The notes under the pieces are model-generated. The model had not been told where the DNA came from. It searched no databases and was given only the letters and a program-made list of their open reading frames with translations. From a virus: DNA of 36,404 bases. The translations under genes were made by a program, and so were the position numbers. The stretch spans positions 1 through 36,404 of IMG/VR virus record IMGVR_UViG_3300032050_000394; one strand, written 5' to 3'. Shown in pieces: positions 28,276 through 36,404 of the stretch. Position 1 is the stretch's first letter. The number at the start of each line of letters is the position of its first letter.

Positions 28276-29475
28276 TCACAGCACCATCTCCTCCACCCGT
28301 TCCTCGACAGTCCGACCCTCAGTGAAGCGGAAGTACTCGGGCACCATCTTCACGAGAGTGCCGTCATTGCCAATGGTGAGGGTAAGAATGTGGAAGCCAA
28401 CGGCAGGTGAAAGACCTAGCCGGGTAAGAAATGGTGATTGCCACTCAAAACACGCAGGAAATAGGACCTGAACGCCGCGTGCTTCAAAAGCCCCACGGAC
28501 ATGCCAATGTCCGACAGCCAGCAATGCGGGCATACGCTCTGCCCTGTAGCCGTCAGCGAGTTTCTGGGCCTTATAAGAGTAGGAATAAGACATTCCACCC
28601 TTGCCGTGGAGAAGGTGGATCCAGCAAGGATTGTCCTCGTCGGGTCCGTAATTGATCCACGCGCTGTAGTCACCAAGGAACTCAATGTCATCACGCTGGT
28701 TCGCCAATGCCACGACGGGGTTGGCCCCAATCCGGCCAAAACCACCTTCGATGTCGTGGTTGCCGGAGATTCCACGAGTGACGATCCCATCGCGCTGAGG
28801 GTAGTGTTCGACAAGGTATTCCACCTGAGACTCGAAGGTGTGGTTCTTGATCTCGGACACCTGACCACGGAAGATGTCCACGCCACAAGTCCAGTCGCCA
28901 GCGTGCAAGACTTCGGTGATTCCACGGTCCTTGAAGATGTCGTAGGCTAGGTGCAGTTCCGACAGAGCCTCTTCGTTGGAGGAAAGGTGGGTGTCGGAAA
29001 CGATGCCAATTGTGATTTCGTTGCCCTCGAGCAGAGAACGGTGAAGGTTCGTCCGGTTGGGAAGGACCTTCTGGATATGCACCTGCTCGTCGGAGTCCGG
29101 AATGCGGTAGCCCCTGCGCCGGAGATCCTCTAGGGAAGTCCGGACCCTCTTGGGAGACACATCTAGTTCATCCGCAATTTCGGAGATGGTGTGCCTACGG
29201 TCCCCGGTGGTCTTCTGCAGAAGGTCGTGTACCTTCTGGGCTACGTCATCTAGTTCCAAGGCTGGAGCATTCTTCGGAGAGTCGAAGTCGTTTGCGAGTG
29301 AATTCTGGCGCTTGCTCAACTTAATGCCAAACTTCGCACACCACGACGTTAGCGTTGTTGCGTGTACAGGAACGCCAGCGGCGGTTGACGCCTGCGCGGC
29401 CTGCTTGCAGTTGCCGTGGGTACGGATTGCTTCAATTAGGAGGTCCTTATCGGTCCACCAATTCTGGTCTGCCAT
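28276..29475 (-). CDS. Metallophosphoesterase with N-terminal DNA-binding-like region
   Basis: 399 residues, ATG with GCAGGAGTT. The C-terminal ~250 residues are a calcineurin-like phosphoesterase with all metal-binding motifs: D161xH163 (SDTHLSS), GDW with Asp194 (HAGDWT), GNHD 238-241, His290 (LLHGKG), GHWH 322-325 (His323, His325). The N-terminus has two HTH-like segments, ~17-50 (NCKQAAQASTAAGVP...TLTSWCAKFG) and ~95-122 (HTISEIADELDVSPKRVRTSLEDLRRRGY), the latter a winged-helix type. Such enzymes cut phosphodiesters in nucleic acids or nucleotides. The fusion suggests a DNA-directed substrate. First gene of the minus-strand block. Confidence 0.85.
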   Translation of the reverse strand: MADQNWWTDKDLLIEAIRTHGNCKQAAQASTAAGVPVHATTLTSWCAKFGIKLSKRQNSLANDFDSPKNAPALELDDVAQKVHDLLQKTTGDRRHTISEIADELDVSPKRVRTSLEDLRRRGYRIPDSDEQVHIQKVLPNRTNLHRSLLEGNEITIGIVSDTHLSSNEEALSELHLAYDIFKDRGITEVLHAGDWTCGVDIFRGQVSEIKNHTFESQVEYLVEHYPQRDGIVTRGISGNHDIEGGFGRIGANPVVALANQRDDIEFLGDYSAWINYGPDEDNPCWIHLLHGKGGMSYSYSYKAQKLADGYRAERMPALLAVGHWHVRGAFEARGVQVLFPACFEWQSPFLTRLGLSPAVGFHILTLTIGNDGTLVKMVPEYFRFTEGRTVEERVEEMVL

Positions 29476-30071
29476 AACTCCTGCTCGGTTGGACTACAGG
29501 GGTTTTCCTAGAAGACAGAAAAGCATCTGATTCGGTCTTTTAGTACGTCGCGCACACGCGCATAGTTACTAACACCTATCTCTTTTCCTTCTCTTTTCTT
29601 TAGGTAAGGCCCCAGCCAGACCGGCTGCTATATCTGCGCCGAGCGCTTATCGTTATAGATGTCTTCTGTCAGGTGTTGGTTTTTTATATAATATTGACGA
29701 ATGTGAGCCGTGGGTGATAAATCAGGGGTCGCGGCTGGTCCCCCTGTCGGTCCACTAGTTGGTCCATTCGGGTCCGTCTGGTGGTCCACTCAGATAGCCC
29801 ACTTGACGCTCTGTGGTGTGTGTGGTAAAAGTCTCATGTGCATGAGGCGACGCGTCGAGAGAGGCATGTGTCTCCGGTGGCGGGGGGGTGGGGGAGGGGC
29901 GGTCGATATGTATACGTATCGGAGGCAGGGTGCGCATACTGCGTATATCCCAGCAGCGAGTCAGCCAGCATACCTACCCCATCTATACATGCCGCACTCA
30001 GACCAGATGCGACGAGCGAGAGGGAGAGCAACGAGAGAGACGAGAGGGACGAACACAGAGGACACACCAGA

Positions 30072-30310
30072 GGGGATATACCCCATACCCCACACGCTCC
30101 ACCTCGAGGGATACCCCACCCCGACGTCCGGCGACAGGGGGAGGGTATGCCCCGAGACTGGCCCTCGAGGTATATCCCCGAGGAGTCCGGCGAGGGCACC
30201 CCCACGGAGATATACCCCTCGAGACTCGCCTCCGGAGATATACCCCTCCGGAGATATACCCCTCCGGAGACTGGTCCCCGAGACTGGTCCTCGGATACTG
30301 GTCCCAGACC
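30072..30310. repeat. ATATACCCC / GACTGGTCC short repeats
   Basis: GGGGATATACCCC (30072-30084), an inverted copy in GAGGTATATCCCC (~30167-30179), then GGAGATATACCCCTC near 30206, 30234 and 30250, the last two as a 16-base tandem unit CCGGAGATATACCCCT. They are followed by three GACTGGTCC- or ATACTGGTCC-type units. Short AT core in very GC-rich flanks, copies in both orientations. Could be protein-binding iterons or an unwinding element. Confidence 0.6.
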
Positions 30311-30411
30311 CGCCCCCCGGCACCGCCCCCACCCGGCACCGGCACCGCCCCCCGCCACCGTCCCCGGCACCGGCACCGGACAACCCTCCTCGGACTGGCC
30401 CCCCGCCGAGG

Positions 30412-30440
30412 TTGCCGCCCCGTCCCCGGCGTGGTACGAT
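30412..30440 (+). promoter_or_regulatory. Putative promoter for the plus-strand block
   Basis: TTGCCG (30412-30417), 17-base spacer, TACGAT (30435-30440), 43 bases before the first small membrane gene. The -35 matches four of six consensus bases; the -10 has the conserved TA...T. It lies at the end of the repeat region and would drive transcription to the right. Confidence 0.5.
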
Positions 30441-30483
30441 ACCGCCATACTCAACGAACCCGCCCGTCCGATAGGAACACCAC

Positions 30484-30624
30484 ATGCAGACCCTCGCCTA
30501 CCTGCTCCTAGCCGTCGCCCTGCTGGCCATGTCCATGTCATCGTGGACCGCCGCCGCAGTGTCGCTGGTGCTGGGCATCGTGGTCTGGGTCTGGGACGGG
30601 CCGAGCCGGAGGTCCAACCCATGA
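30484..30624 (+). CDS. Small membrane protein
   Basis: 46 residues: a hydrophobic stretch from residue 4 to about 37 with a Ser/Thr/Trp break near 17-22, so one long or two short membrane segments (LAYLLLAVALLAM and AAVSLVLGIVVWVW), ending with a basic tail (GPSRRSNP). ATG 30484 has AGGA upstream. It overlaps the next gene by four bases (ATGA). Tiny paired membrane proteins in phages can be holin-like, but nothing here proves that. Confidence 0.55.
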   Translation: MQTLAYLLLAVALLAMSMSSWTAAAVSLVLGIVVWVWDGPSRRSNP

Positions 30625-30764
30625 TGTGGCTGATACTAGGTGCCGTGCTGCTGGTCTGGCTGATCGCTAAGTGGTCGGTGCTGGCCATCTGGTACATGGG
30701 CGTCGGCATCGTCCTGCTGGGCGTCGCCACGTTCCGTCTGATCACCAACCGCTGGCCGGTCTGA
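30621..30764 (+). CDS. Second small membrane protein, coupled
   Basis: 47 residues, from ATG 30621 or 30624. Two hydrophobic stretches (WLILGAVLLVWLI and VLAIWYMGVGIVLLGVATF) separated by AKWS, ending in a basic turn (RLITNRWPV). Translationally coupled with the preceding membrane gene. Followed after 15 bases by the tRNA. Function unknown; the pair could be holin/anti-holin or another membrane complex, by size and coupling alone. Confidence 0.5.
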   Translation: MMWLILGAVLLVWLIAKWSVLAIWYMGVGIVLLGVATFRLITNRWPV

Positions 30765-30779
30765 CCACCGTGCCCGCCC

Positions 30780-30853
30780 GCCTGTGTAGCCCAACTGGCA
30801 GAGGCAACGGACTCAAAACCCGTTCAGTGTGGGTTCGACTCCCACCACAGGCA
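30780..30853 (+). tRNA. tRNA with anticodon CAA, short variable loop
   Basis: Full cloverleaf of 74 bases: acceptor GCCTGTG/CACAGGC (seven perfect pairs), D arm with GCC/GGC and GG in the loop, anticodon arm ACGGA CTCAAAA CCCGT with anticodon CAA (one A-C mismatch at the loop end), five-base variable region, T arm GTGGG TTCGACT CCCAC, discriminator A. CAA reads UUG (Leu), but a tRNA-Leu would be expected to have a long variable arm. The 3-prime CCA is not encoded. It lies between the small membrane genes and the deaminase. Confidence 0.85.
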
Positions 30854-30858
30854 TAACC

Positions 30859-31233
30859 GTGGCGACTCTCGCCATCCCGCGCCGTCCGACCGTCCTGACC
30901 CACGCCATGCGGGTCGCCGGACGGTCCGAACTCAAGCGGTTCCACACCGGGGCCGCGCTGCTGGACCGTCACGGTCGGCTGGTGTCCACCGGCTGGTCCC
31001 ATCGGTGTGAACCGCGTCTGGTCCGGTACCGGTCCATGCACGCCGAACACCATGCCCTCCGCCGCGCCGGTCGGTCCGTGTCCGGTGGGGTCGCCGCCGT
31101 GGCCACCATATCCGCCCGTGGCAACTGGACCATGAGCCTACCGTGCGACGAGTGCCGGTCGATACTGGAACAGGCAGGCATCGTAACCGTGTACTATACG
31201 ACCCCCGAGGGATGGGATGTCATCGAACTCTGA
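30859..31233 (+). CDS. Cytidine/deoxycytidylate deaminase-like protein
   Basis: 124 residues from GTG 30859, the first plausible start after the tRNA. The zinc-dependent deaminase signature is complete: HAE with His61 and catalytic Glu63 (SMHAEHHAL), and PCDEC with Cys96 and Cys99 (LPCDECRSIL). Family members convert dCMP to dUMP or cytidine to uridine, feeding thymidylate synthesis. This fits nrdJ elsewhere in the window as part of nucleotide supply. Compact length, typical for phage versions. A specific substrate cannot be told from sequence; a tRNA- or nucleic-acid-editing deaminase is an alternative. Confidence 0.8.
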   Translation: MATLAIPRRPTVLTHAMRVAGRSELKRFHTGAALLDRHGRLVSTGWSHRCEPRLVRYRSMHAEHHALRRAGRSVSGGVAAVATISARGNWTMSLPCDECRSILEQAGIVTVYYTTPEGWDVIEL

Positions 31234-31450
31234 GTACGACTACCGCCGCGACTGGCCCGAGGCCGAGCGGCATCAGTGGACCGGCGTGATGGGCGCGATC
31301 TACCATAACCCGACGACCGGCGTGGTCCGTGTCTGCATGAGCGGTGAGTGGCCCGATACCGCCATCGTGACACAGGACGCCTACGTGGTGCAGCGAACCG
31401 TCAGCGGGCGGCTCATGCAGTTCGACGTCCACGGCCTGTACTGGGACTGA
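31217..31450 (+). CDS. Small unknown protein
   Basis: 77 residues, ATG 31217 with GAGGGATGGG upstream, overlapping the deaminase end by 17 bases. Strand-rich middle (GVVRVCMSGEWPDTAIVTQDAYVVQRTVSGRLMQFDVHGLYWD) following a Trp/Arg-rich N-terminus (YDYRRDWPEAERHQWTG). No family recognised. Probably co-translated with the deaminase. Confidence 0.55.
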   Translation: MSSNSEYDYRRDWPEAERHQWTGVMGAIYHNPTTGVVRVCMSGEWPDTAIVTQDAYVVQRTVSGRLMQFDVHGLYWD

Positions 31451-31452
31451 CC

Positions 31453-31641
31453 GTGCGACCCATAGATATCCGCGCCCGTCTGGACCAACTCCACCGTGAG
31501 TGGAACGCTCTCGGCGTCATCGGTCAGGACCGCCACGGTGCCGAGTACGCCCAGCGGTACTCGTCGCTGGCCGAGGAGGCCATACGGGAGGCCGAGCGGT
31601 GGTTCGGCGTGGCGTTCGACCGGTTCGACCAGTCACAGTAG
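31453..31641 (+). CDS. Small helical protein
   Basis: 62 residues from GTG 31453, two bases after the preceding stop. Nearly all helix: IRARLDQLHREWNALGVIGQDRHGAEYAQRYSSLAEEAIREAERWFGVAFDRF. Arg and Glu alternate as in a coiled coil. No recognisable family. The tight spacing favours co-translation with its neighbours. Confidence 0.5.
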   Translation: MRPIDIRARLDQLHREWNALGVIGQDRHGAEYAQRYSSLAEEAIREAERWFGVAFDRFDQSQ

Positions 31642-31691
31642 TCCGACCGGTGTTGTACCATCGGGACCTCGACCGGTCAAGAGGAGGAACC

Positions 31692-31895
31692 ATGAACATA
31701 GACGCTCGCTGCATGAGCGGCGACGCACAGCGGGACGTCCGCTGTGAGTGCATCGACTGCCGTAGGGTCGTCGCTGTGGCCCTGACGCCGGGGCACCCAT
31801 CCGTGCCCGGTGCCGTGTGCCCGATCTGCGACGGCCCCGCCCTGCCACCGTGCCCATGTGGTGGCCAACTCGTAACGGAGGGGACCCTCTGGTGA
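31692..31895 (+). CDS. Small zinc-ribbon-like protein
   Basis: 67 residues, ATG 31692 after a strong AGAGGAGGAACC site. Nine cysteines, several in close pairs: CECIDC near residues 19-24, CPIC near 43-46, CPCGG near 54-58. This is a zinc-ribbon pattern, metal-binding rather than enzymatic. Four-base overlap (GTGA) with the next gene. Function unknown. Confidence 0.6.
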   Translation: MNIDARCMSGDAQRDVRCECIDCRRVVAVALTPGHPSVPGAVCPICDGPALPPCPCGGQLVTEGTLW

Positions 31896-32128
31896 TCCAC
31901 CGCAACGCCATACTGGCCCTCAGGTCCGATCTGGACAGCGGGCACATCGTCGCCATCCAACTGGTCGACGGTTCATCCGTGCAGATCGATAGCATCGTCG
32001 GAGTGCAGGACGAGTCCCATGCCATCGTCATGGGCCACGGGGTCCGCCTGCTGCTCCCCCTCGACCAGATCGTAGCCGTCGCCGTGTCGAACACCGACGG
32101 CGACAGCACGGAGCCACTATACGACTAA
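31892..32128 (+). CDS. Small beta-rich unknown protein
   Basis: 78 residues from GTG 31892, which overlaps the preceding stop as GTGA and has GGAGGGG upstream. Strands (HIVAIQLVDGSSVQIDSIVGVQDESHAIVMGHGVRLLLPLDQIVAVAVSN) suggest a small barrel, similar in outline to single-strand-nucleic-acid or scaffold-type barrels, but no motif supports a name. Confidence 0.55.
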   Translation: MIHRNAILALRSDLDSGHIVAIQLVDGSSVQIDSIVGVQDESHAIVMGHGVRLLLPLDQIVAVAVSNTDGDSTEPLYD

Positions 32129-32451
32129 ACGCCGGGGCGCGATAGTACAGGTGCCGGTGATGCTGCTCTCCGGTGTTGCTGTCAGTGAAGGTGGCAGGGT
32201 CCAGCCGGTCAGCCCGGTGGAGGACCAGACGCCGGATGTGCTGGGTTGGCACGGGCGGGCGTCGAAGCGGCGGGGATAGCGGCCCCGTCCTCCCTGCCCC
32301 GTCCTCCTCAGGTTTCGCTGGCCGTTGGGGGCCACGCGGAGCAGGTGCCGTAAGGTGACCCGGCATAAGCCGGTAGTCGGGCCGGGGCGCTCCCAACAGC
32401 CCCGGCTCACCTGTATCCGACAACGGTTACGTGCGCCACACGCTGTAGAGG
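32129..32451. other. Gene-poor stretch with hairpins
   Basis: About 320 bases with no supported gene. It has two hairpins: CCGGC ATAA GCCGG (32360-32373) and GCCGGGGC...GCCCCGGC (32381-32406, eight perfect pairs, ten-base loop), the second a possible terminator without U run. A 39-codon plus frame near 32160 and two antisense open frames exist but have no ribosome site. A consensus promoter follows. Confidence 0.5.
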
Positions 32452-32480
32452 TTGACGCGTGGCCGGCGCTCTGGTAAAAT
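32452..32480 (+). promoter_or_regulatory. Consensus sigma-70-type promoter
   Basis: TTGACG (32452-32457), 17-base spacer, TAAAAT (32475-32480), 36 bases before the GTG of the following gene. Five of six bases match in each box. Best promoter on the plus strand; it would start transcription into the small-gene array. Confidence 0.78.
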
Positions 32481-32516
32481 CTCCTCTTCAGCGGCAACTA
32501 CCACGAGGAGAACGCC

Positions 32517-32771
32517 GTGAGCGACGAGTACATCGTCGAGGGATCAGTGCCCGCGTATCTATGGACGCATCGCCTAGAGGACGGTGCACGCAGGGAGATG
32601 CATCCTGAGCGTTTCATCATGCTGCTGGCGGTGTCTGCAGCAGAGCGTGAGGCGGTGCAGGCAGAGGCGCTGAGGCTGATGTTCCGTCACGGCGGCAGTT
32701 ATGTGGAGACACTGCGCGGTGTTGTGCACCGACATATCCACCCCGACAACGACAAACATAGGGGAGAGTGA
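32517..32771 (+). CDS. Small unknown protein, first gene after a strong promoter
   Basis: 84 residues from GTG 32517 with GAGGAGAACGCC before it. Helical end (SAAEREAVQAEALRLMFRHGGSYVETLRGVVHRHIHPDNDKHRGE) with several His; N-terminus with EYIVEGSVPAYLWTHRLEDG. No family recognised. Its stop overlaps the next ATG by one base. Confidence 0.6.
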   Translation: MSDEYIVEGSVPAYLWTHRLEDGARREMHPERFIMLLAVSAAEREAVQAEALRLMFRHGGSYVETLRGVVHRHIHPDNDKHRGE

Positions 32772-32884
32772 TGGACCCGTTTACATCGTTCGTGTACTGG
32801 ACGCACACGTGGGACTGGTGGCACTGGTCGCCCGTTTGGGTGGCGGTGGTGGCCGTCATGGTGTGGATCTGGAAGGAGGGATGA
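32771..32884 (+). CDS. Tryptophan-rich mini membrane protein
   Basis: 37 residues, eight of them Trp: MDPFTSFVYWTHTWDWWHW followed by SPVWVAVVAVMVWIWKEG. The second part is a single membrane-spanning stretch; the first is an amphipathic Trp/His segment. Coupled to both neighbours (TGATG and ATGA overlaps), which supports its being real despite its size. Function unknown. Confidence 0.5.
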   Translation: MDPFTSFVYWTHTWDWWHWSPVWVAVVAVMVWIWKEG

Positions 32885-33096
32885 TGGAACGCACACCGGA
32901 GGAAGTTGCAGCGCTGACCGTTGAGGCCAACCGCCGATGGCGGGAGGCGCGGGAGGCAGACAGTCGCAAGTACGGCGGCTGCGAGCAGTGCCTCGATCTG
33001 GCAGGGCCGACTCACGGAGGCTCGAGTTTCTGCCAGTCGGGGTCTATCGCAAGTGGTGGGCACAGGGCACACTGCACTTGCGACTGGTGCTTCTAG
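32881..33096 (+). CDS. Cysteine-rich small protein
   Basis: 71 residues from ATG 32881 or 32884, preceded by GGAAGGAGGG. Helical, charged N-terminus (RTPEEVAALTVEANRRWREAREADSRKYGG) and a metal-site-like C-terminus CEQC...C...H..HCTCDWCF. The end looks like a zinc finger. Thirteen bases after its stop comes a tRNA-like element. Confidence 0.6.
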   Translation: MMERTPEEVAALTVEANRRWREAREADSRKYGGCEQCLDLAGPTHGGSSFCQSGSIASGGHRAHCTCDWCF

Positions 33097-33109
33097 GCAG
33101 GGCAGTACA

Positions 33110-33154
33110 GGGCGGGGTAGGCGCAGGTGACGGGTTCGAATCCCGTCCCGTCCT
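33110..33154 (+). ncRNA. tRNA-like element without anticodon arm (T1)
   Basis: GGGCGGG (33110-33116) pairs with CCCGTCC (33147-33153), one G-U pair. Directly inside is a canonical T arm: ACGGG, loop TTCGAAT, CCCGT (33130-33146). Only 13 bases lie between the 5-prime acceptor strand and the T arm, too few for a D and anticodon arm. No other 5-prime acceptor partner is present within normal tRNA distance upstream. Confidence 0.6.
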
Positions 33155-33185
33155 CTTACACTCTAATCCAAGGAGGGGGTGAGAC

Positions 33186-33353
33186 ATGATGGATGATGAG
33201 TTCGATGACTCCGACGACCCCGACTACTTCGATGCCCTTCTCGAGCAGTTCTACGAGGAGGAAATGGGGGGTTCAGTAAGCGTCTACGACTTGCTGAACG
33301 ATCCCGCGTTCCTTCGCGGTCAGTTGCCTTGGCCGCAGTTCGTTGGTGTCTAG
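33186..33353 (+). CDS. Small acidic protein
   Basis: 55 residues from ATG 33186 with AAGGAGG GGGTGAGAC in front. Extremely acidic start (MMDDEFDDSDDPDYFDALLEQFYEEE) then SVYDLLNDPAFLRGQLPWPQFVGV. No family. Acidic phage mini-proteins can mimic DNA or bind host proteins, but nothing here specifically proves that. Followed by hairpin element A. Confidence 0.6.
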   Translation: MMDDEFDDSDDPDYFDALLEQFYEEEMGGSVSVYDLLNDPAFLRGQLPWPQFVGV

Positions 33354-33363
33354 AATGACCTGA

Positions 33364-33387
33364 CCTGAGCATGTCGTTAAACTGCTC
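33364..33387 (+). repeat. Intergenic hairpin element A, copy 1
   Basis: CCTGAGCATGTCGTTAAAC followed by TGCTC. GAGCA and TGCTC pair across an 11-base loop containing CGTTAAAC. Located 10 bases after a stop codon. Two other copies: 33664-33687 and 36162-36185. No U run. Confidence 0.75.
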
Positions 33388-33421
33388 CTGTGCGTCCCCG
33401 AACCAAGAAAGGGGGTGAGAT

Positions 33422-33652
33422 ATGTTGGATCACATCGAGCGCAACTGGGTTCAGTACCTCGTTGCGTTTATCGTGGTGGTTTGCATCAGCGTTTGGGCGA
33501 TTGCGTTCACGCAGTGGCTCACGCTGCCGCAGTGCACCACGATCGCTGAGTACGGCGGTAGCAACTGGCGGAACCTGAAGGAGGGTGCCGCTACGTATGA
33601 GCGCGTCGGCAACGCGATCGTCGACTGCAAGGTGGGCAGGTACCTGCCGTAG
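33422..33652 (+). CDS. Small single-pass membrane protein
   Basis: 76 residues, ATG 33422 preceded by AAAGGGGGTGAGAT. One membrane segment near residues 11-33 (YLVAFIVVVCISVWAIAFTQW). The C-terminal ~40 residues contain two Cys (PQCTTIAEYGG..., VDCKVGRYLP) and could lie outside the cell. Follows element A copy 1 and is followed by A copy 2. Function unknown; size does not exclude a holin-like or superinfection-related role. Confidence 0.6.
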   Translation: MLDHIERNWVQYLVAFIVVVCISVWAIAFTQWLTLPQCTTIAEYGGSNWRNLKEGAATYERVGNAIVDCKVGRYLP

Positions 33653-33663
33653 CAGTCGCCCGT

Positions 33664-33687
33664 CCTGAGCATGACGTTAAACTGCTC
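33664..33687 (+). repeat. Intergenic hairpin element A, copy 2
   Basis: Same sequence as copy 1 except for one base in the loop (GAC for GTC). Exactly 300 bases after copy 1 and 11 bases after the membrane protein stop. Confidence 0.75.
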
Positions 33688-33698
33688 GCCCATCCCGA

Positions 33699-33712
33699 CT
33701 GTCGTGAGACAG
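33699..33712 (+). repeat. Hairpin element E, copy 1
   Basis: CTGTC GTGA GACAG: five perfect pairs with a GNRA-type GTGA loop, 35 bases before the next gene start. An identical copy is at 34451-34464, and a degenerate one at ~34795-34810. Confidence 0.65.
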
Positions 33713-33747
33713 CCATCCATCCCCAACACCCCGAAAGGAGGTGAAAT

Positions 33748-33948
33748 ATGAAGACCATCCGCGCCATCCTGTGGTTCGTCCGCAGGCTGCCTCGGTACTG
33801 GGCTGACGCCCGGTGCGCCGAGATGGAGGCCCGGTGGGACAGGTTCGCAGAGCGCTGCCTGACCCCCGAGCAGCGGTCTGCGTCGCAGGCTTGGGTCGAC
33901 GAGGAGGAGATCCTCCTCGAGATCCTCGACGGCGACGACATGGACTAG
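33748..33948 (+). CDS. Small basic-to-acidic helical protein
   Basis: 66 residues, ATG 33748 after AAAGGAGGTGAAAT, complementary to the full 16S anti-Shine-Dalgarno. Basic amphipathic N-terminus (MKTIRAILWFVRRLPRYWAD), acidic end (DEEEILLEILDGDDMD). All-helical appearance. No family recognised. Confidence 0.6.
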   Translation: MKTIRAILWFVRRLPRYWADARCAEMEARWDRFAERCLTPEQRSASQAWVDEEEILLEILDGDDMD

Positions 33949-33962
33949 GACCTCCGGAGTCT

Positions 33963-33987
33963 GACCCACTTGGCAACAGAACGGGTC
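33963..33987 (+). repeat. Intergenic hairpin element B, copy 1
   Basis: GACCC (33963-33967) pairs with GGGTC (33983-33987). 15-base loop ACTTGGCAACAGAAC. Preceded by GGAGTCT. Part of a four-copy family with the same loop but a changed stem: compare GCCC/GGGC in copies 2 and 3 and AGCCCC/GGGGCT in copy 4. Confidence 0.78.
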
Positions 33988-33989
33988 GT

Positions 33990-34040
33990 AGGCACGGCTG
34001 CTGGCGCAGGCGGTTGCCGGGTTCAATCCCCGGCGTGCCT
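33990..34040 (+). ncRNA. tRNA-like element without anticodon arm (T2)
   Basis: AGGCACG (33990-33996) pairs perfectly with CGTGCCT (34034-34040); T arm CCGGG, loop TTCAATC, CCCGG (34017-34033) lies directly inside. The 20-base connector contains GGCGCAGG, as does T1, and a tiny CTG/CAG hairpin. T1 and T2 differ in both stems yet stay paired. TTTT follows, so it might also end transcription. Confidence 0.6.
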
Positions 34041-34072
34041 TTTCTGTTCCCTAGTAGGAGAGGAGGTGAAAT

Positions 34073-34357
34073 ATGAGCGACTGGTTTCGTCCTAAGGCGT
34101 CCCCCCTTGGCATTGCCGAGGGTGGCGCCTACATGGGCCAGATCTGGTTCGACAACGGCTACGCCGCGTCGATCCGTCTGGAGCCGACCGACTGGACCAA
34201 GGGCGTGCCTCTTTACGAGGTCGGCCTGATCCTCGGTACGCCGGAGTCGTGGGGCCTGCTCGACGCGAGCGACGCGTTGGACTGCGACCGCGAGGTTATC
34301 CGGTACGCCACGGGCGCTTACCTGCTGGATGTCCTTCAGCAGATCCGCAGCCTGTAG
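34073..34357 (+). CDS. Unknown protein
   Basis: 94 residues, ATG 34073 after GAGGAGGTGAAAT. Mixed strand and helix: YMGQIWFDNGYAASIRLEPTDWTKGVPLYEVGLILGTPESWGLL, then REVIRYATGAYLLDVLQQIRSL. Composition and layout could suggest a small single-domain protein, no family known to me. Followed by B copy 2. Confidence 0.6.
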   Translation: MSDWFRPKASPLGIAEGGAYMGQIWFDNGYAASIRLEPTDWTKGVPLYEVGLILGTPESWGLLDASDALDCDREVIRYATGAYLLDVLQQIRSL

Positions 34358-34373
34358 TCGGACACGGAGTTTG

Positions 34374-34396
34374 GCCCACTTGGCAACAGGACGGGC
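34374..34396 (+). repeat. Intergenic hairpin element B, copy 2
   Basis: GCCC/GGGC stem with loop ACTTGGCAACAGGAC (one base different from copy 1), preceded by GGAGTTT. Follows the stop at 34357. Continues into the F module at 34402-34441. Confidence 0.78.
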
Positions 34397-34401
34397 AAGT
34401 A

Positions 34402-34441
34402 GCCGGTAGGGGTAGCGTCCCTTGCTGTCCGGTTGCGACCG
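34402..34441 (+). other. Element F, two-state RNA module, copy 1
   Basis: Hairpin AGGGG TAGCG TCCCT (34408-34422) lies inside an outer stem GCCGG (34402-34406) / CCGGT (34429-34433). CGGT (34430-34433) can alternatively pair with ACCG (34438-34441) across TGCG. The CGGT segment is shared, so the two forms exclude each other. Compare copy 2. Confidence 0.6.
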
Positions 34442-34450
34442 TGAGTGTGA

Positions 34451-34464
34451 CTGTCGTGAGACAG
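34451..34464 (+). repeat. Hairpin element E, copy 2
   Basis: Identical to copy 1 (33699-33712): CTGTC GTGA GACAG. It lies 33 bases before the ATG of the next gene, in the leader. Confidence 0.65.
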
Positions 34465-34497
34465 CCATCCAACCCCTATCACGGGAGGAGGTGATAT

Positions 34498-34707
34498 ATG
34501 GACGTGTACATCGTGCTGCGGCACGCTGACGACGTTCTCCTTGGGTCTATCTTCAGGTCTTTGGAGGAGGCGATGGCGTGGTGCGCCGATTGCTCCAACG
34601 GGGTTCGCCTCGTCTGGAAGTCGTCCCCCGGTTGCGGTCTGCAGTCTTGGACCAGCAGCGCTGACGGGTTCGGCTGGGTGATTGAGAGCAGGTTTCTCAA
34701 CGCCTAG
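34498..34707 (+). CDS. MDV...AWC family protein 1
   Basis: 69 residues, ATG 34498 after GGAGGAGGTGATAT. Layout: strand MDVYIVLRHADDVLLGSIF, helix SLEEAMAWCADC, strand RLVWKSSPG, then WTSSADGFGWVIESRFL. Two paralogues follow at 34844 and 35551, sharing MDV(Y/W) at the start and (L)xxAxAWC in the middle. Very likely a small alpha/beta fold used repeatedly by this phage. Function unknown. Confidence 0.65.
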   Translation: MDVYIVLRHADDVLLGSIFRSLEEAMAWCADCSNGVRLVWKSSPGCGLQSWTSSADGFGWVIESRFLNA

Positions 34708-34718
34708 AGCGGAGTCTG

Positions 34719-34741
34719 GCCCACTTGGCAACAGAACGGGC
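34719..34741 (+). repeat. Intergenic hairpin element B, copy 3
   Basis: GCCC (34719-34722) / GGGC (34738-34741), loop ACTTGGCAACAGAAC identical to copy 1. Preceded by GGAGTCTG. The stop of the preceding gene (34707) is 11 bases before. Confidence 0.78.
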
Positions 34742-34746
34742 AAGTG

Positions 34747-34785
34747 ACTGGTGGGGGTAGCGCCCCTGCGTTCCAGTTGCGACTG
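34747..34785 (+). other. Element F, two-state RNA module, copy 2
   Basis: Hairpin GGGGG TAGCG CCCCT (34753-34767) inside outer stem ACTGG (34747-34751) / CCAGT (34773-34777). CAGT (34774-34777) can pair instead with ACTG (34782-34785) across TGCG. Bases change in three segments together compared with copy 1 (ACTGG/CCAGT/ACTG versus GCCGG/CCGGT/ACCG), so both pairings are kept. Confidence 0.65.
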
Positions 34786-34843
34786 TGAGTGTGACCGTCG
34801 TGATGACTGGCCACCAAACCCCTAGTAGGAAAGGAGGTGATAT

Positions 34844-35095
34844 ATGGACGTTTGGGTTGTTACGTGTAACACGGAGGATGGCAAGGACCTTGTTTGTGGG
34901 GTCCATGCTGACCTCGATCACGCGAAGGCGTGGTGCCAGATCGCCACGGCAGTGGATATCGACTGGCACAAGGCCCTCACCGACTCGGCGGGTTACACCG
35001 GTGACATGGGTGGTTACGCAATCAGGAGCCAGAACCTCGGTGACGACGGTTACTACTGGTGGACTGTGCATAGCCGCCGTGTTGTTCGCTCTTGA
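34844..35095 (+). CDS. MDV...AWC family protein 2
   Basis: 83 residues, ATG 34844 after AAAGGAGGTGATAT. Start MDVWVVTCNTEDGKDLVCGV, helix DLDHAKAWCQI, then IDWHKALTD and a strand end GDDGYYWWTVHSRR. Paralogue of the 34498 and 35551 products. Followed directly by B copy 4. Function unknown. Confidence 0.65.
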   Translation: MDVWVVTCNTEDGKDLVCGVHADLDHAKAWCQIATAVDIDWHKALTDSAGYTGDMGGYAIRSQNLGDDGYYWWTVHSRRVVRS

Positions 35096-35104
35096 TCGGA
35101 GTCT

Positions 35105-35131
35105 AGCCCCGCTTGGCAACAGAAAGGGGCT
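35105..35131 (+). repeat. Intergenic hairpin element B, copy 4
   Basis: AGCCCC (35105-35110) / GGGGCT (35126-35131), loop GCTTGGCAACAGAAA. The stem is longer than in the other copies and has different bases; the loop keeps CTTGGCAACAG. Preceded by GGAGTCT. Five bases later comes element C copy 1. Confidence 0.75.
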
Positions 35132-35135
35132 TACA

Positions 35136-35178
35136 CCCTCCTCAGTGCGAGGGGAGGGAGGCGTAGAAAGGCTGCGCC
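35136..35178 (+). repeat. Double hairpin element C, copy 1
   Basis: First hairpin CCCTCC / GGAGGG with extra TC-GA pairs and small bulges (35136-35158). Second hairpin GGCGTAG, loop AAAGG, CTGCGCC (35160-35178). Lies before the gene at 35215. Confidence 0.7.
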
Positions 35179-35214
35179 AACACGCAGTTTGTCTAGCAGA
35201 AGAGGAGGTGATTT

Positions 35215-35460
35215 GTGAGGAAGCACCCGATTTGGTCGCTGACGGACGACGACTGGGAGAATTACGACCGGTATGCCTGTCCGTGCTGCTCTTGGTACGA
35301 CGCGGACGATGAGTTCGAGCGTTCCAAGTACGTGCCGGAGGAGTTTCACTGGTGGTCTTTTGTGGCCTTCGGTGACGAGGACGAGTTCCGAGAGGACACT
35401 CCCTCCTTGGACGGGTCGTCCCGTGGCACTACTGCGTTCGCCGTCAGGCGGCGCAAGTAG
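35215..35460 (+). CDS. Small acidic aromatic protein
   Basis: 81 residues from GTG 35215 after GAGGAGGTGATTT. Starts MRKHPIWSLTDDDWENYDRYACPCCSWYDADDEFER, with Cys22, Cys24 and Cys25, perhaps a metal site, and acidic and aromatic stretches (EEFHWWSFVAFGDEDEFRED), ending basic (AVRRRK). No family known. Confidence 0.6.
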   Translation: MRKHPIWSLTDDDWENYDRYACPCCSWYDADDEFERSKYVPEEFHWWSFVAFGDEDEFREDTPSLDGSSRGTTAFAVRRRK

Positions 35461-35470
35461 TGCCGCTGCA

Positions 35471-35510
35471 CCCTCCCCTTCGGGGGAGGGAGGCGTAGAA
35501 AGGCTGCGCC
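35471..35510 (+). repeat. Double hairpin element C, copy 2
   Basis: First hairpin CCCTCCCC TTCG GGGGAGGG (eight perfect pairs, UUCG loop, 35471-35490). Second hairpin identical to copy 1: GGCGTAG AAAGG CTGCGCC (35492-35510). Eleven bases after a stop. Confidence 0.8.
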
Positions 35511-35550
35511 AAATAAGCAAGGCAGCCCTGAATGTGAAAGGGGGTGAAAT

Positions 35551-35808
35551 ATGGACGTGTACACGATTTCCCTCGTTGAGCGGGGGGGTGAGGATCGGGT
35601 GATCCGTATCCAGCCGGACCTGTCTTCCGCGAAGGCGTGGTGCTGCGACCACGGGAGGACTCCTCTCCAGTGGACTGAGCAGATCCGCAACGATGTGTGG
35701 AGGAGTGCGGAGTTCTCGTACTGGAAGTGGTGGATGGCTGGCGAGGGTACTCCCGGACGCACGCTGCAGTACGTCATCTGCCGCTGGACGGTGGGTGAGG
35801 AGGAGTAG
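35551..35808 (+). CDS. MDV...AWC family protein 3
   Basis: 85 residues, ATG 35551 after GAAAGGGGGTGAAAT. Start MDVYTISLVERGGEDRVIRI, helix DLSSAKAWCCD, then PLQWTEQIRND and a Trp-rich end (SYWKWWMAGEG, LQYVICRWTV). Paralogue of 34498 and 34844 by start, AWC and the C-terminal strand with Trp. Function unknown. Confidence 0.65.
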   Translation: MDVYTISLVERGGEDRVIRIQPDLSSAKAWCCDHGRTPLQWTEQIRNDVWRSAEFSYWKWWMAGEGTPGRTLQYVICRWTVGEEE

Positions 35809-35819
35809 TGCCGCCCAAG

Positions 35820-35867
35820 CCCTCCCCCTGCAGGTAGAGGGGGAGGGAGGTGTGGAAAGGCCACACC
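35820..35867 (+). repeat. Double hairpin element C, copy 3
   Basis: First hairpin CCCTCCCCC / GGGGGAGGG (nine pairs). Second hairpin GGTGTGG, loop AAAGG, CCACACC. Relative to copies 1 and 2 two stem pairs change on both sides (C-G to T-A and A-T to G-C) and one T-G becomes T-A, while the loop is unchanged. Confidence 0.8.
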
Positions 35868-35904
35868 GCCTTTCATAACAGGGTAAACAACGAAAGGAAT
35901 CCCT

Positions 35905-36153
35905 GTGTCGAACGCTACCGCCTCGATTGACGAGGCAGAGAACGCTTTCCTTCACGACGGCGAGGAGTCGCTCGTCGCACACTTCTACTGGATCGCCGTG
36001 GTGCAGCCGATTCAGCGGGACGTGGAGGACGCGATGTACTGGTACGAGCAGCCCAAGGAGGCCCGCAAGTCGTGGGTGCTTCTGCAGTCGTGGCTGACGT
36101 ACCTGAAGGTCTTCATGAACTACACCCCGCCTGTGGGTGAGTTCGACCGCTAG
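35905..36153 (+). CDS. Small helical unknown protein
   Basis: 82 residues from GTG 35905, AAAGGA six bases upstream. Mostly helical: SIDEAENAFLHDGEESLVAHFYWIAVVQPIQRDVEDAMYWYEQPKEARKSWVLLQSWLTYLKVFMNY. Ends PPVGEFDR. The high content of Trp, Tyr and charged residues suggests a soluble helical bundle. No family recognised. Last complete gene in the window. Confidence 0.6.
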   Translation: MSNATASIDEAENAFLHDGEESLVAHFYWIAVVQPIQRDVEDAMYWYEQPKEARKSWVLLQSWLTYLKVFMNYTPPVGEFDR

Positions 36154-36161
36154 TAGTTCGA

Positions 36162-36185
36162 CCTGAGCAAGTCGTTAAACTGCTC
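36162..36185 (+). repeat. Intergenic hairpin element A, copy 3
   Basis: CCTGAGCAAGTCGTTAAAC followed by TGCTC; GAGCA and TGCTC pair. Nine bases after the stop at 36153. Differs from copy 1 by a single loop base. Confidence 0.75.
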
Positions 36186-36216
36186 AGATTATAAACCAGC
36201 CGTCAAAGGAGAGTTT

Positions 36217-36404
36217 GTGTTTTACGATCCTTTGCAGGAATTTTGGGACGCGTACATGAGCGACGTGGAACAGATGATTCCGACTGGAATGCCACACACA
36301 GCCGAAGTCAAAGACACGGCGTGGCCTCCGGTAAGTCATCACACACCGCCACCAGCAAACCGTGTCGCGTGTTACTGTCACACATGCTCAATGAACCGCG
36401 GCAA
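36217..36404 (+). CDS. Unknown protein, C-terminus cut by window edge
   Basis: From GTG 36217 with AAAGGAGAGTTT upstream, open to the window end: 62 residues visible. Sequence starts MFYDPLQEFWDAYMSDVEQMIPTGM and reaches VACYCHTCSMNRG, with CYCHTC as a possible metal site. The rest of the gene is outside the window, so no function can be given. Confidence 0.6.
   Translation, partial: MFYDPLQEFWDAYMSDVEQMIPTGMPHTAEVKDTAWPPVSHHTPPPANRVACYCHTCSMNRG

Follow-up and report, generated by a model that had tools for sequence, protein, structure and literature searches.

Stop-proximal RNA elements in a viral small-gene array include a pseudoknot that recurs across phages of diverse hosts and probably marks message ends

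Phage genes are packed tightly, which raises the question of how their messages obtain stable ends without a terminator after each gene. The window analyzed here is the whole of a 36,404-base IMG/VR virus record (IMGVR_UViG_3300032050_000394), which carries minus-strand genes for a tail sheath, a tape measure, a head protease and a ribonucleotide reductase and, at its right end, an array of small plus-strand genes. All ten gaps that follow stop codons in positions 33097–36216 open with a structured element of one of four kinds, denoted T, A, B and E. Element A is an H-type RNA pseudoknot with compensating changes in two crossing stems, located just past stop codons in phages whose hosts are very different bacteria. 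The family appears to be new and has an unusually wide phage range, and its probable role is to mark the ends of phage messages and to protect them.

Results

The stop-proximal elements of the array come in the order T1, A1, A2, B1, B2, B3, B4, E2, E3 and A3, so that this position is taken by three copies of A, four of B, two of E and one of T, with the third E (E1) lying after B4 and the second T (T2) after B1. A gap may hold a second element (C1, T2, D1–C2, D2–C3 or E1) and ends with a strong ribosome site of the AAGGAGGTGAT type, followed by the next start codon. Comparison of the array proteins with Pfam and PHROGs yielded no convincing match.

All genes and elements of the array lie on the plus strand. 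It opens with T1 (33110–33153), a mini tRNA-like element recovered in a structural scan, with a 7-base-pair acceptor stem, a short D-like loop and a T arm bearing a TTCGAAT loop, which begins 13 nucleotides (nt) past the stop codon TAG at 33094–33096. A gene for 55 amino acids (aa; 33186–33353) is followed 8 nt after its stop by the pseudoknot A1 (GACCTGAGCATGTCGTTAAACTGCTC; 33362–33387), and a 76-aa gene (33422–33652) 9 nt after its stop by A2 (GTCCTGAGCATGACGTTAAACTGCTC; 33662–33687), behind which lies the C1 hairpin CUGUC-GUGA-GACAG (33697–33724). The four copies of B follow genes of 66 (33748–33948), 94 (34073–34357), 69 (34498–34707) and 83 aa (34844–35095) at distances of 6, 7, 2 and 1 nt. 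B1 (33955–33988) combines CGGAG with a TGACCC/GGGTCG hairpin closed by a CTTGGCAACAG loop, and directly 3' of it stands T2 (33990–34040), a second mini tRNA-like element detected by structural scan and folding. B2 (34365–34396) and B3 (34710–34741) lead into two copies of a structured stretch, D1 (34397–34448) and D2 (34742–34792), and thence into the hairpin C2 (34449–34476) and its diverged relative C3 (34793–34818), and B4 (35097–35131), with an AGCCCC/GGGGCT stem, is followed by E1 (35133–35180), a pair of hairpins of which the second is GGCGUAG-AAAGG-CUGCGCC. Behind the last three genes, of 81 (35215–35460), 85 (35551–35808) and 82 aa (35905–36153), lie E2 (35470–35512, about 10 nt after the stop), E3 (35819–35869, with GGUGUGG-AAAGG-CCACACC as its second hairpin) and A3 (GACCTGAGCAAGTCGTTAAACTGCTC; 36160–36185, 6 nt after the stop); both E2 and E3 have a fold z of −3.46.

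A first-pass annotation of this DNA, made from the sequence alone, had described recurring families of intergenic elements in this place, with A and B starting shortly after stop codons and near-identical ribosome sites ahead of the genes, and this observation is confirmed. Its counts for A, B, C, E and T agree with those above, and the two-copy family that it called F is probably the longer unit between B and C. The array is present where it was placed, although the start given, 33097, is slightly early, with the first element at about 33110. The annotation noticed the element families; it did not recognize A and B as knots with a distribution across phages, nor B as an element of transfer-messenger RNA (tmRNA).

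Element A is 26 nt long, with the pattern G-N-C-CU-GAGCA-N-G-N'-C-GUUAAAC-UGCUC, in which the outer GNC pairs with GN'C in the loop of the GAGCA/UGCUC stem, and its stems thus cross. The stretch GNCCTGAGCANGNCGTTAAACTGCTC is common to all three copies of the window (E of 3–4e-8 each), and the 36 kb contain no further copy. Both helices covary, with 98.5% pairing in helix 1, 95.5% in helix 2 and double changes in five of the eight pairs. Among 44 distinct sequences, 96.6% of cells are paired versus 79.8% in shuffles, and 61 cells are changed on both sides versus 18.7, neither value being reached in any of 500 shuffles; sliding the alignment brings the pairing down to 21–62%. The free N pair is T-A in 84, A-T in 43, C-G in 18 and G-C in 1 of 147 distinct copies. 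A scan that left nine non-canonical combinations open at one pair of the second stem returned solely Watson-Crick versions (GGGCA/TGCCC and GTGCA/TGCAC), and further stem variants from another scan include GAACA/TGTTC, GATCA/TGATC, CACCA/TGGTG and AAACG/CGTTT. Because the loop and some of the stem bases were preset in the scans, only the free positions test covariation, and these covary. The loop GUUAAAC is invariant. Single-sequence folding is uninformative for A and B, as the program used models no pseudoknots, and comparison with the 4227 covariance models of Rfam 15 gave no match for A even at E values up to 5. A-like knots also occur in tandem or several per phage (L159, L136, L094, L227, L229 and L083), and the crAss-like phage cr124_1 carries a diverged A, GAG...CTC / TAGCA...TGCTA, in which both stems are kept with other bases.

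The core of A, with 20 fixed bases, was found in at least 119 stretches in a scan of viral contigs, and the full pattern in only 14 stretches, mostly of metagenome bins, in 257 Gb of bacterial and archaeal genomes; none was found in E. coli genomes. Cultured carriers comprise Mycobacterium phage Labelle, Arthrobacter phage Molivia, Synechococcus phage S-EIVl, Nostoc phage NMeng1, Microcystis phage Mwe-JY13, Paracoccus phages, Moorella phage MTATph1, the thermophilic phage D6E, many Staphylococcus phages, and lactobacillus and streptococcus phages, as well as the crAss-like cr124_1. The first-pass annotation had named a lack of covariation and of copies elsewhere as what would count against it, and both covariation and copies were found; its judgment that the pattern exceeds chance is borne out by the recurrence of A and B with compensating changes in many unrelated phages and by the presence in this array of two of the three strict mini-tRNA shapes detected (see below). 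A search of open-licence PubMed Central papers by sequence string and by topic returned no description of A, with an unindexed report being possible, and A may exist unnamed in large computational lists.

With respect to position, 33.5% of 188 copies of A with distinct flanks start 4–8 nt after the stop of a sense open reading frame (ORF) of at least 60 codons, as against 1.4% for random positions and 4.3% for the antisense strand, and 70% lie within 50 nt of an upstream stop. Spacings of exactly 6 nt are the most frequent (37 copies), ahead of 7 nt (19 copies); few are shorter than 5 nt, and above this hard lower bound the distribution has a long tail that reaches past 50 nt. In S-EIVl, where the stops were annotated by others, five of six copies lie 6, 12, 7, 6 and 6 nt past them. 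A ribosome at a stop codon covers about 6 following nucleotides in its entry channel, so that the bound and the tail together look like placement as near to the stop as possible without unwinding. Once the peak at 6 is set aside, the spacings show no preference for a reading frame (19, 30 and 16 copies per frame), and a read-through role was rejected on this ground. The distance from A to the downstream start is broad where that to the stop is sharp. In addition, A stands at the ends of convergent operons in L043, L055, L079 and L165. In D6E (L154) and Javan383 (L158), a second conserved stretch, GGGGCTTATGCAA or nearly so, lies between A and the start of the scaffold gene, the flanks being otherwise unlike.

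Downstream of A or B, at a distance of 0–8 nt, there is often a place where a 3' end is made: the 5' end of a tRNA or tRNA-like gene, a hammerhead, a T-run or a terminator. A tRNA or tRNA-like gene begins 3 nt behind A in Molivia, 4 nt in L083 and 5 nt in cr124_1, and an annotated pseudo-tRNA 3–4 nt behind it in NMeng1; within the locus set, two such genes adjoin A versus 0.03 expected (P 4e-4). Type III hammerheads that cut about 5–8 nt past A are present in L162 (Rfam RF00008) and L081 (core motif); in the scan for hammerheads behind A, the matches in 11 of 12 contigs were chance ones, that in L081 alone being real. A T-run of five or more within 13 nt follows A in 31 of 186 cases and post-stop controls in 14 of 337 (P 2e-6). 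Where such a cut or stop can be recognized, A would remain at the 3' end of the upstream RNA. An Rfam search of 55 further A loci revealed few other RNAs near A, among them a DUF2800 RNA (RF02960, of unknown function; L052 3672–3829, −) that begins one base past A, a placement hinting at a further possible device behind the knot. A pistol ribozyme (L083 7233–7306, +) and a type II hammerhead (L134 8813–8877, −) are intergenic in A-carrying phages, away from the copies of A, and no match to known ribozyme models was detected in window positions 29500–36404.

Element B consists of a CGGAG box, a fully variable stem (GACCC/GGGTC, TCACCC/GGGTGA, GTATCC/GGATAC, CCAGCC/GGCTGG and GTCCC/GGGAC among its variants) and the loop CTTG(G/T)CAACAG. 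A loose scan found it in 53 contigs, with most of the matches being true B, and none was found in cultured phages. Many copies come directly behind the tag ORF (...ALAA stop) in permuted tmRNA genes of phages, identified by ARAGORN and by Rfam RF04321 and RF01850, a placement seen in L015, L018, L178, L183, L185 and L197. There, B aligns to the final hairpin in the beta_tmRNA model, ahead of the terminator, and a terminator often comes directly after it. Pairing of the CGGAG box with the loop is plausible from this model, in which CGGGG pairs with CCUUG, and would not be fully Watson-Crick in B. The four copies of the window and those of L008, L017, L020 and L025 follow ordinary genes without a tmRNA; ARAGORN reported no tmRNA in the window. 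Since B occurs both in the split tmRNA and after ordinary genes, a structure that ends a coding piece seems to serve the ends of ordinary messages as well. Permuted tmRNAs of their own are encoded by the uncultured phages L015, L018, L023, L024, L178, L183, L185, L194, L197, L198, L200 and L206, with varied tag peptides of which several end in ALAA, and in L023 B also lies between the acceptor and coding pieces.

The T elements are mini-tRNAs without an anticodon arm: a 7-base-pair acceptor stem, a 13–20 nt D-like segment and a T arm leave no room for one. The strict shape occurs three times in 5.44 Mb of scanned strand, namely in T1, in T2 and in L217, where it lies after a stop codon and before a ribosome site in a phage that also carries A. 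Neither ARAGORN nor the Rfam tRNA model reports T1 or T2, and neither forms a cloverleaf with an anticodon arm. The acceptor stem is stacked on a T arm with a TTCRA loop, as in mascRNA, and T2, which folds as a three-way junction, matches mascRNA-menRNA (RF01684) weakly, at 21.8 bits, below the gathering score of 42.5. The single-sequence fold of T1 is not significant (z −0.44). The two elements have different acceptor sequences and the same fold.

The hairpin pair E shows compensating changes in its second arm (GGCGUAG/CUGCGCC versus GGUGUGG/CCACACC) around the AAAGG loop; a pattern scan elsewhere returned no homologs, only unrelated terminator-like hairpins. As E stands where A and B do, close behind a stop codon, it may replace them locally. 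C and D are found behind the first module of some gaps and might have a part in processing; within the retrieved loci, C has no other copy.

The surroundings of the array provide some further context. A tRNA-Leu (CAA) gene (30780–30853, +) lies where the minus-strand structural genes turn to plus-strand small genes. The protein encoded at 28276–29475 (−) has no PHROG match, and its sole match in a cultured phage, at 29% identity, is in the haloarchaeal Halorubrum tailed virus BLv36. Cultured phages gave no BLAST match to the array DNA or to 24 kb of the window. The closest relatives, judged by a 399-aa protein, are L298 and L299 (76% identity), whose records, which may be incomplete, contain neither A nor B nor the array. 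Three array genes (34498–34707, 34844–35095 and 35551–35808, +) are apparent paralogs that share an MDVY start and an AMAWC/AKAWC motif, and such look-alike sequences suggest local duplication inside the array.

Discussion

The elements described here are RNA structures that act as modules at gene ends, and the balance of the evidence tips slightly toward the view that modules in the gaps set the 3' ends of phage messages and shield them. All contexts are most simply explained by message ends of two parts, an exonuclease-resistant knot next to the stop codon and, behind it, an interchangeable device that makes the 3' end. The first module (A, B and perhaps E) would be a compact RNA knot placed as close to the stop as the terminating ribosome permits, where it should halt 3'-to-5' exonucleases before they enter the coding region. 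An optional second module just downstream would make the 3' end, either by cleavage (by RNase P at a tRNA or mini-tRNA, by a hammerhead ribozyme or at an endonuclease site) or by termination at a T-run or intrinsic terminator. In either case the upstream message would finish with the knot, and the gene that follows would rely on a strong ribosome site of its own. In the B1–T2 gap, cleavage of T2 by RNase P, as in the case of mascRNA, would produce an upstream message ending in B1, which T2 adjoins one nucleotide further on. With somewhat more assurance, we propose that A represents a previously undescribed, phage-wide class of RNA which engages a universal partner, be it a ribonuclease, the terminating ribosome or RNA polymerase, in order to separate or protect neighboring messages, with tRNA-like and ribozyme cutters plugging in behind it as parts of a modular message-end code.

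The first-pass interpretation, which read the elements as signals for the end of transcripts, stability or exchange, is accordingly only partly supported. The reading as end-of-transcript and stability signals fits the evidence best, and exchange of gene cassettes is unsupported: there is no sign of mobile cassettes, and the elements are tied to stops and the sense strand rather than to gene borders in either orientation.

Several observations weigh against a protective message end. The loop GUUAAAC seems to be conserved beyond the needs of a mere mechanical block, and a bound partner is possible. Behind most copies of A there is merely a spacer and the next ribosome site, with no recognized cutter; the hammerhead scan brought just one more viral case; full intrinsic terminators are not enriched after A (3.8% versus 4.7% in controls); and in 10 of 186 cases a T-run precedes A instead. 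Moreover, A lies just upstream of scaffold or capsid genes in several Firmicutes phages, a location that could suit protection of the downstream message.

The main rival to a protective message end is an effect on the ribosome: positioned at the mRNA entry of a ribosome halted at the stop codon, A might alter termination, recycling, read-through or coupling to the next gene. The sharp spacing of 6–7 nt, which resembles that of frameshift and read-through pseudoknots, agrees with such a role, as does the location of A between two sense genes in 74 of the 79 copies for which both neighbors are resolved and a sense gene lies upstream. Nevertheless, the long tail of spacings, the lack of frame preference beyond the peak at 6, the copies before tRNAs and hammerheads, after tRNAs and at operon ends, where there is no gene to be coupled, and the presence of B at the end of a non-coding RNA, the tmRNA, argue against it as the whole story, and we regard it as unlikely, if worth serious attention. 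Less likely still is an action on RNA polymerase or Rho, with A serving as a terminator (together with a T-run), as a block to the loading of Rho on untranslated RNA or as an antiterminator comparable to the HK022 put sites. T-runs after A are enriched 4.6-fold in odds and the post-stop position is where Rho would load, but about 83% of the copies have no T-run within 13 nt, most are located inside apparent operons, and in permuted tmRNA B lies upstream of a separate terminator.

Protection of the opposite end, whereby, after an upstream cut, A would keep RNase J or RNase E from attacking the downstream message at its 5' end, could explain its location ahead of the highly expressed scaffold and capsid genes of D6E, phiMR11, Javan383 and phiEF-1.1. 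We consider this improbable, given that A is tied to the upstream stop and not to the downstream start, and that recognizable cut sites 3' of A imply that it stays with the upstream piece. The possibility that the repeats act at the level of DNA, as recombination or integration sites that move gene cassettes, is very slight: the tandem repeats and small unrelated genes are reminiscent of such systems, and tRNA-like pieces can be integration remnants, but A has a strict sense orientation, the compensating changes preserve RNA pairing and not sequence, and the two T elements share a fold with different acceptor sequences. This explanation is largely refuted by the covariation.

The occurrence of one tiny RNA in phages of very different bacteria and its near absence from bacterial chromosomes suggest a general phage strategy against host RNA decay or a universal binding partner. 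A can be tested in cultured phages, such as Staphylococcus phiMR11, Mycobacterium Labelle and Synechococcus S-EIVl; phage genome annotation would benefit from its recognition, and it might find use as a small genetic part.

Parallels with known systems are instructive in placing these elements. The closest counterparts of B are the permuted tmRNAs (RF01850 beta_tmRNA and RF04321 tmRNA_permuted), with which the window copies share the post-stop position, the upstream CGGRG box, the variable stem and the CUUG..AAC loop; the window copies, and those of L008, L017, L020 and L025, differ in following ordinary genes. The B1–T2 pair is reminiscent of the 3' ends of MALAT1 and MEN beta, where a compact protective structure, the triple helix, precedes a tRNA-like RNase P substrate (mascRNA); those are eukaryotic nuclear RNAs of different sequence, the match of T2 is below threshold, and the parallel is one of analogy only. 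H-type pseudoknots that direct frameshifting or read-through, such as those of beet western yellows virus and murine leukemia virus, resemble A in their fold, a 2-nt loop 1, an A-containing loop 3 and a spacer of 6–8 nt; unlike them, A has no slippery site or conserved read-through frame and sits before tRNAs and at operon ends. The start-associated sequences of cluster K mycobacteriophages are likewise repeats in phage intergenic gaps, but they are tied to starts and A to stops, in agreement with the first-pass annotation, which had set the array elements apart from them. As a kind, A is closest to 3' stabilizing structures, one mark of which, a location on the sense strand just past stop codons, it displays. 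Bacterial 3' stabilizers (repetitive extragenic palindromic sequences and bacterial interspersed mosaic elements, terminator hairpins) and the intercistronic hairpins of phages are similarly intergenic, sense-oriented and located after stops; in contrast to these plain hairpins, A has the constant form of a 26-nt pseudoknot whose loop does not vary, and it is common to phages of unrelated hosts.

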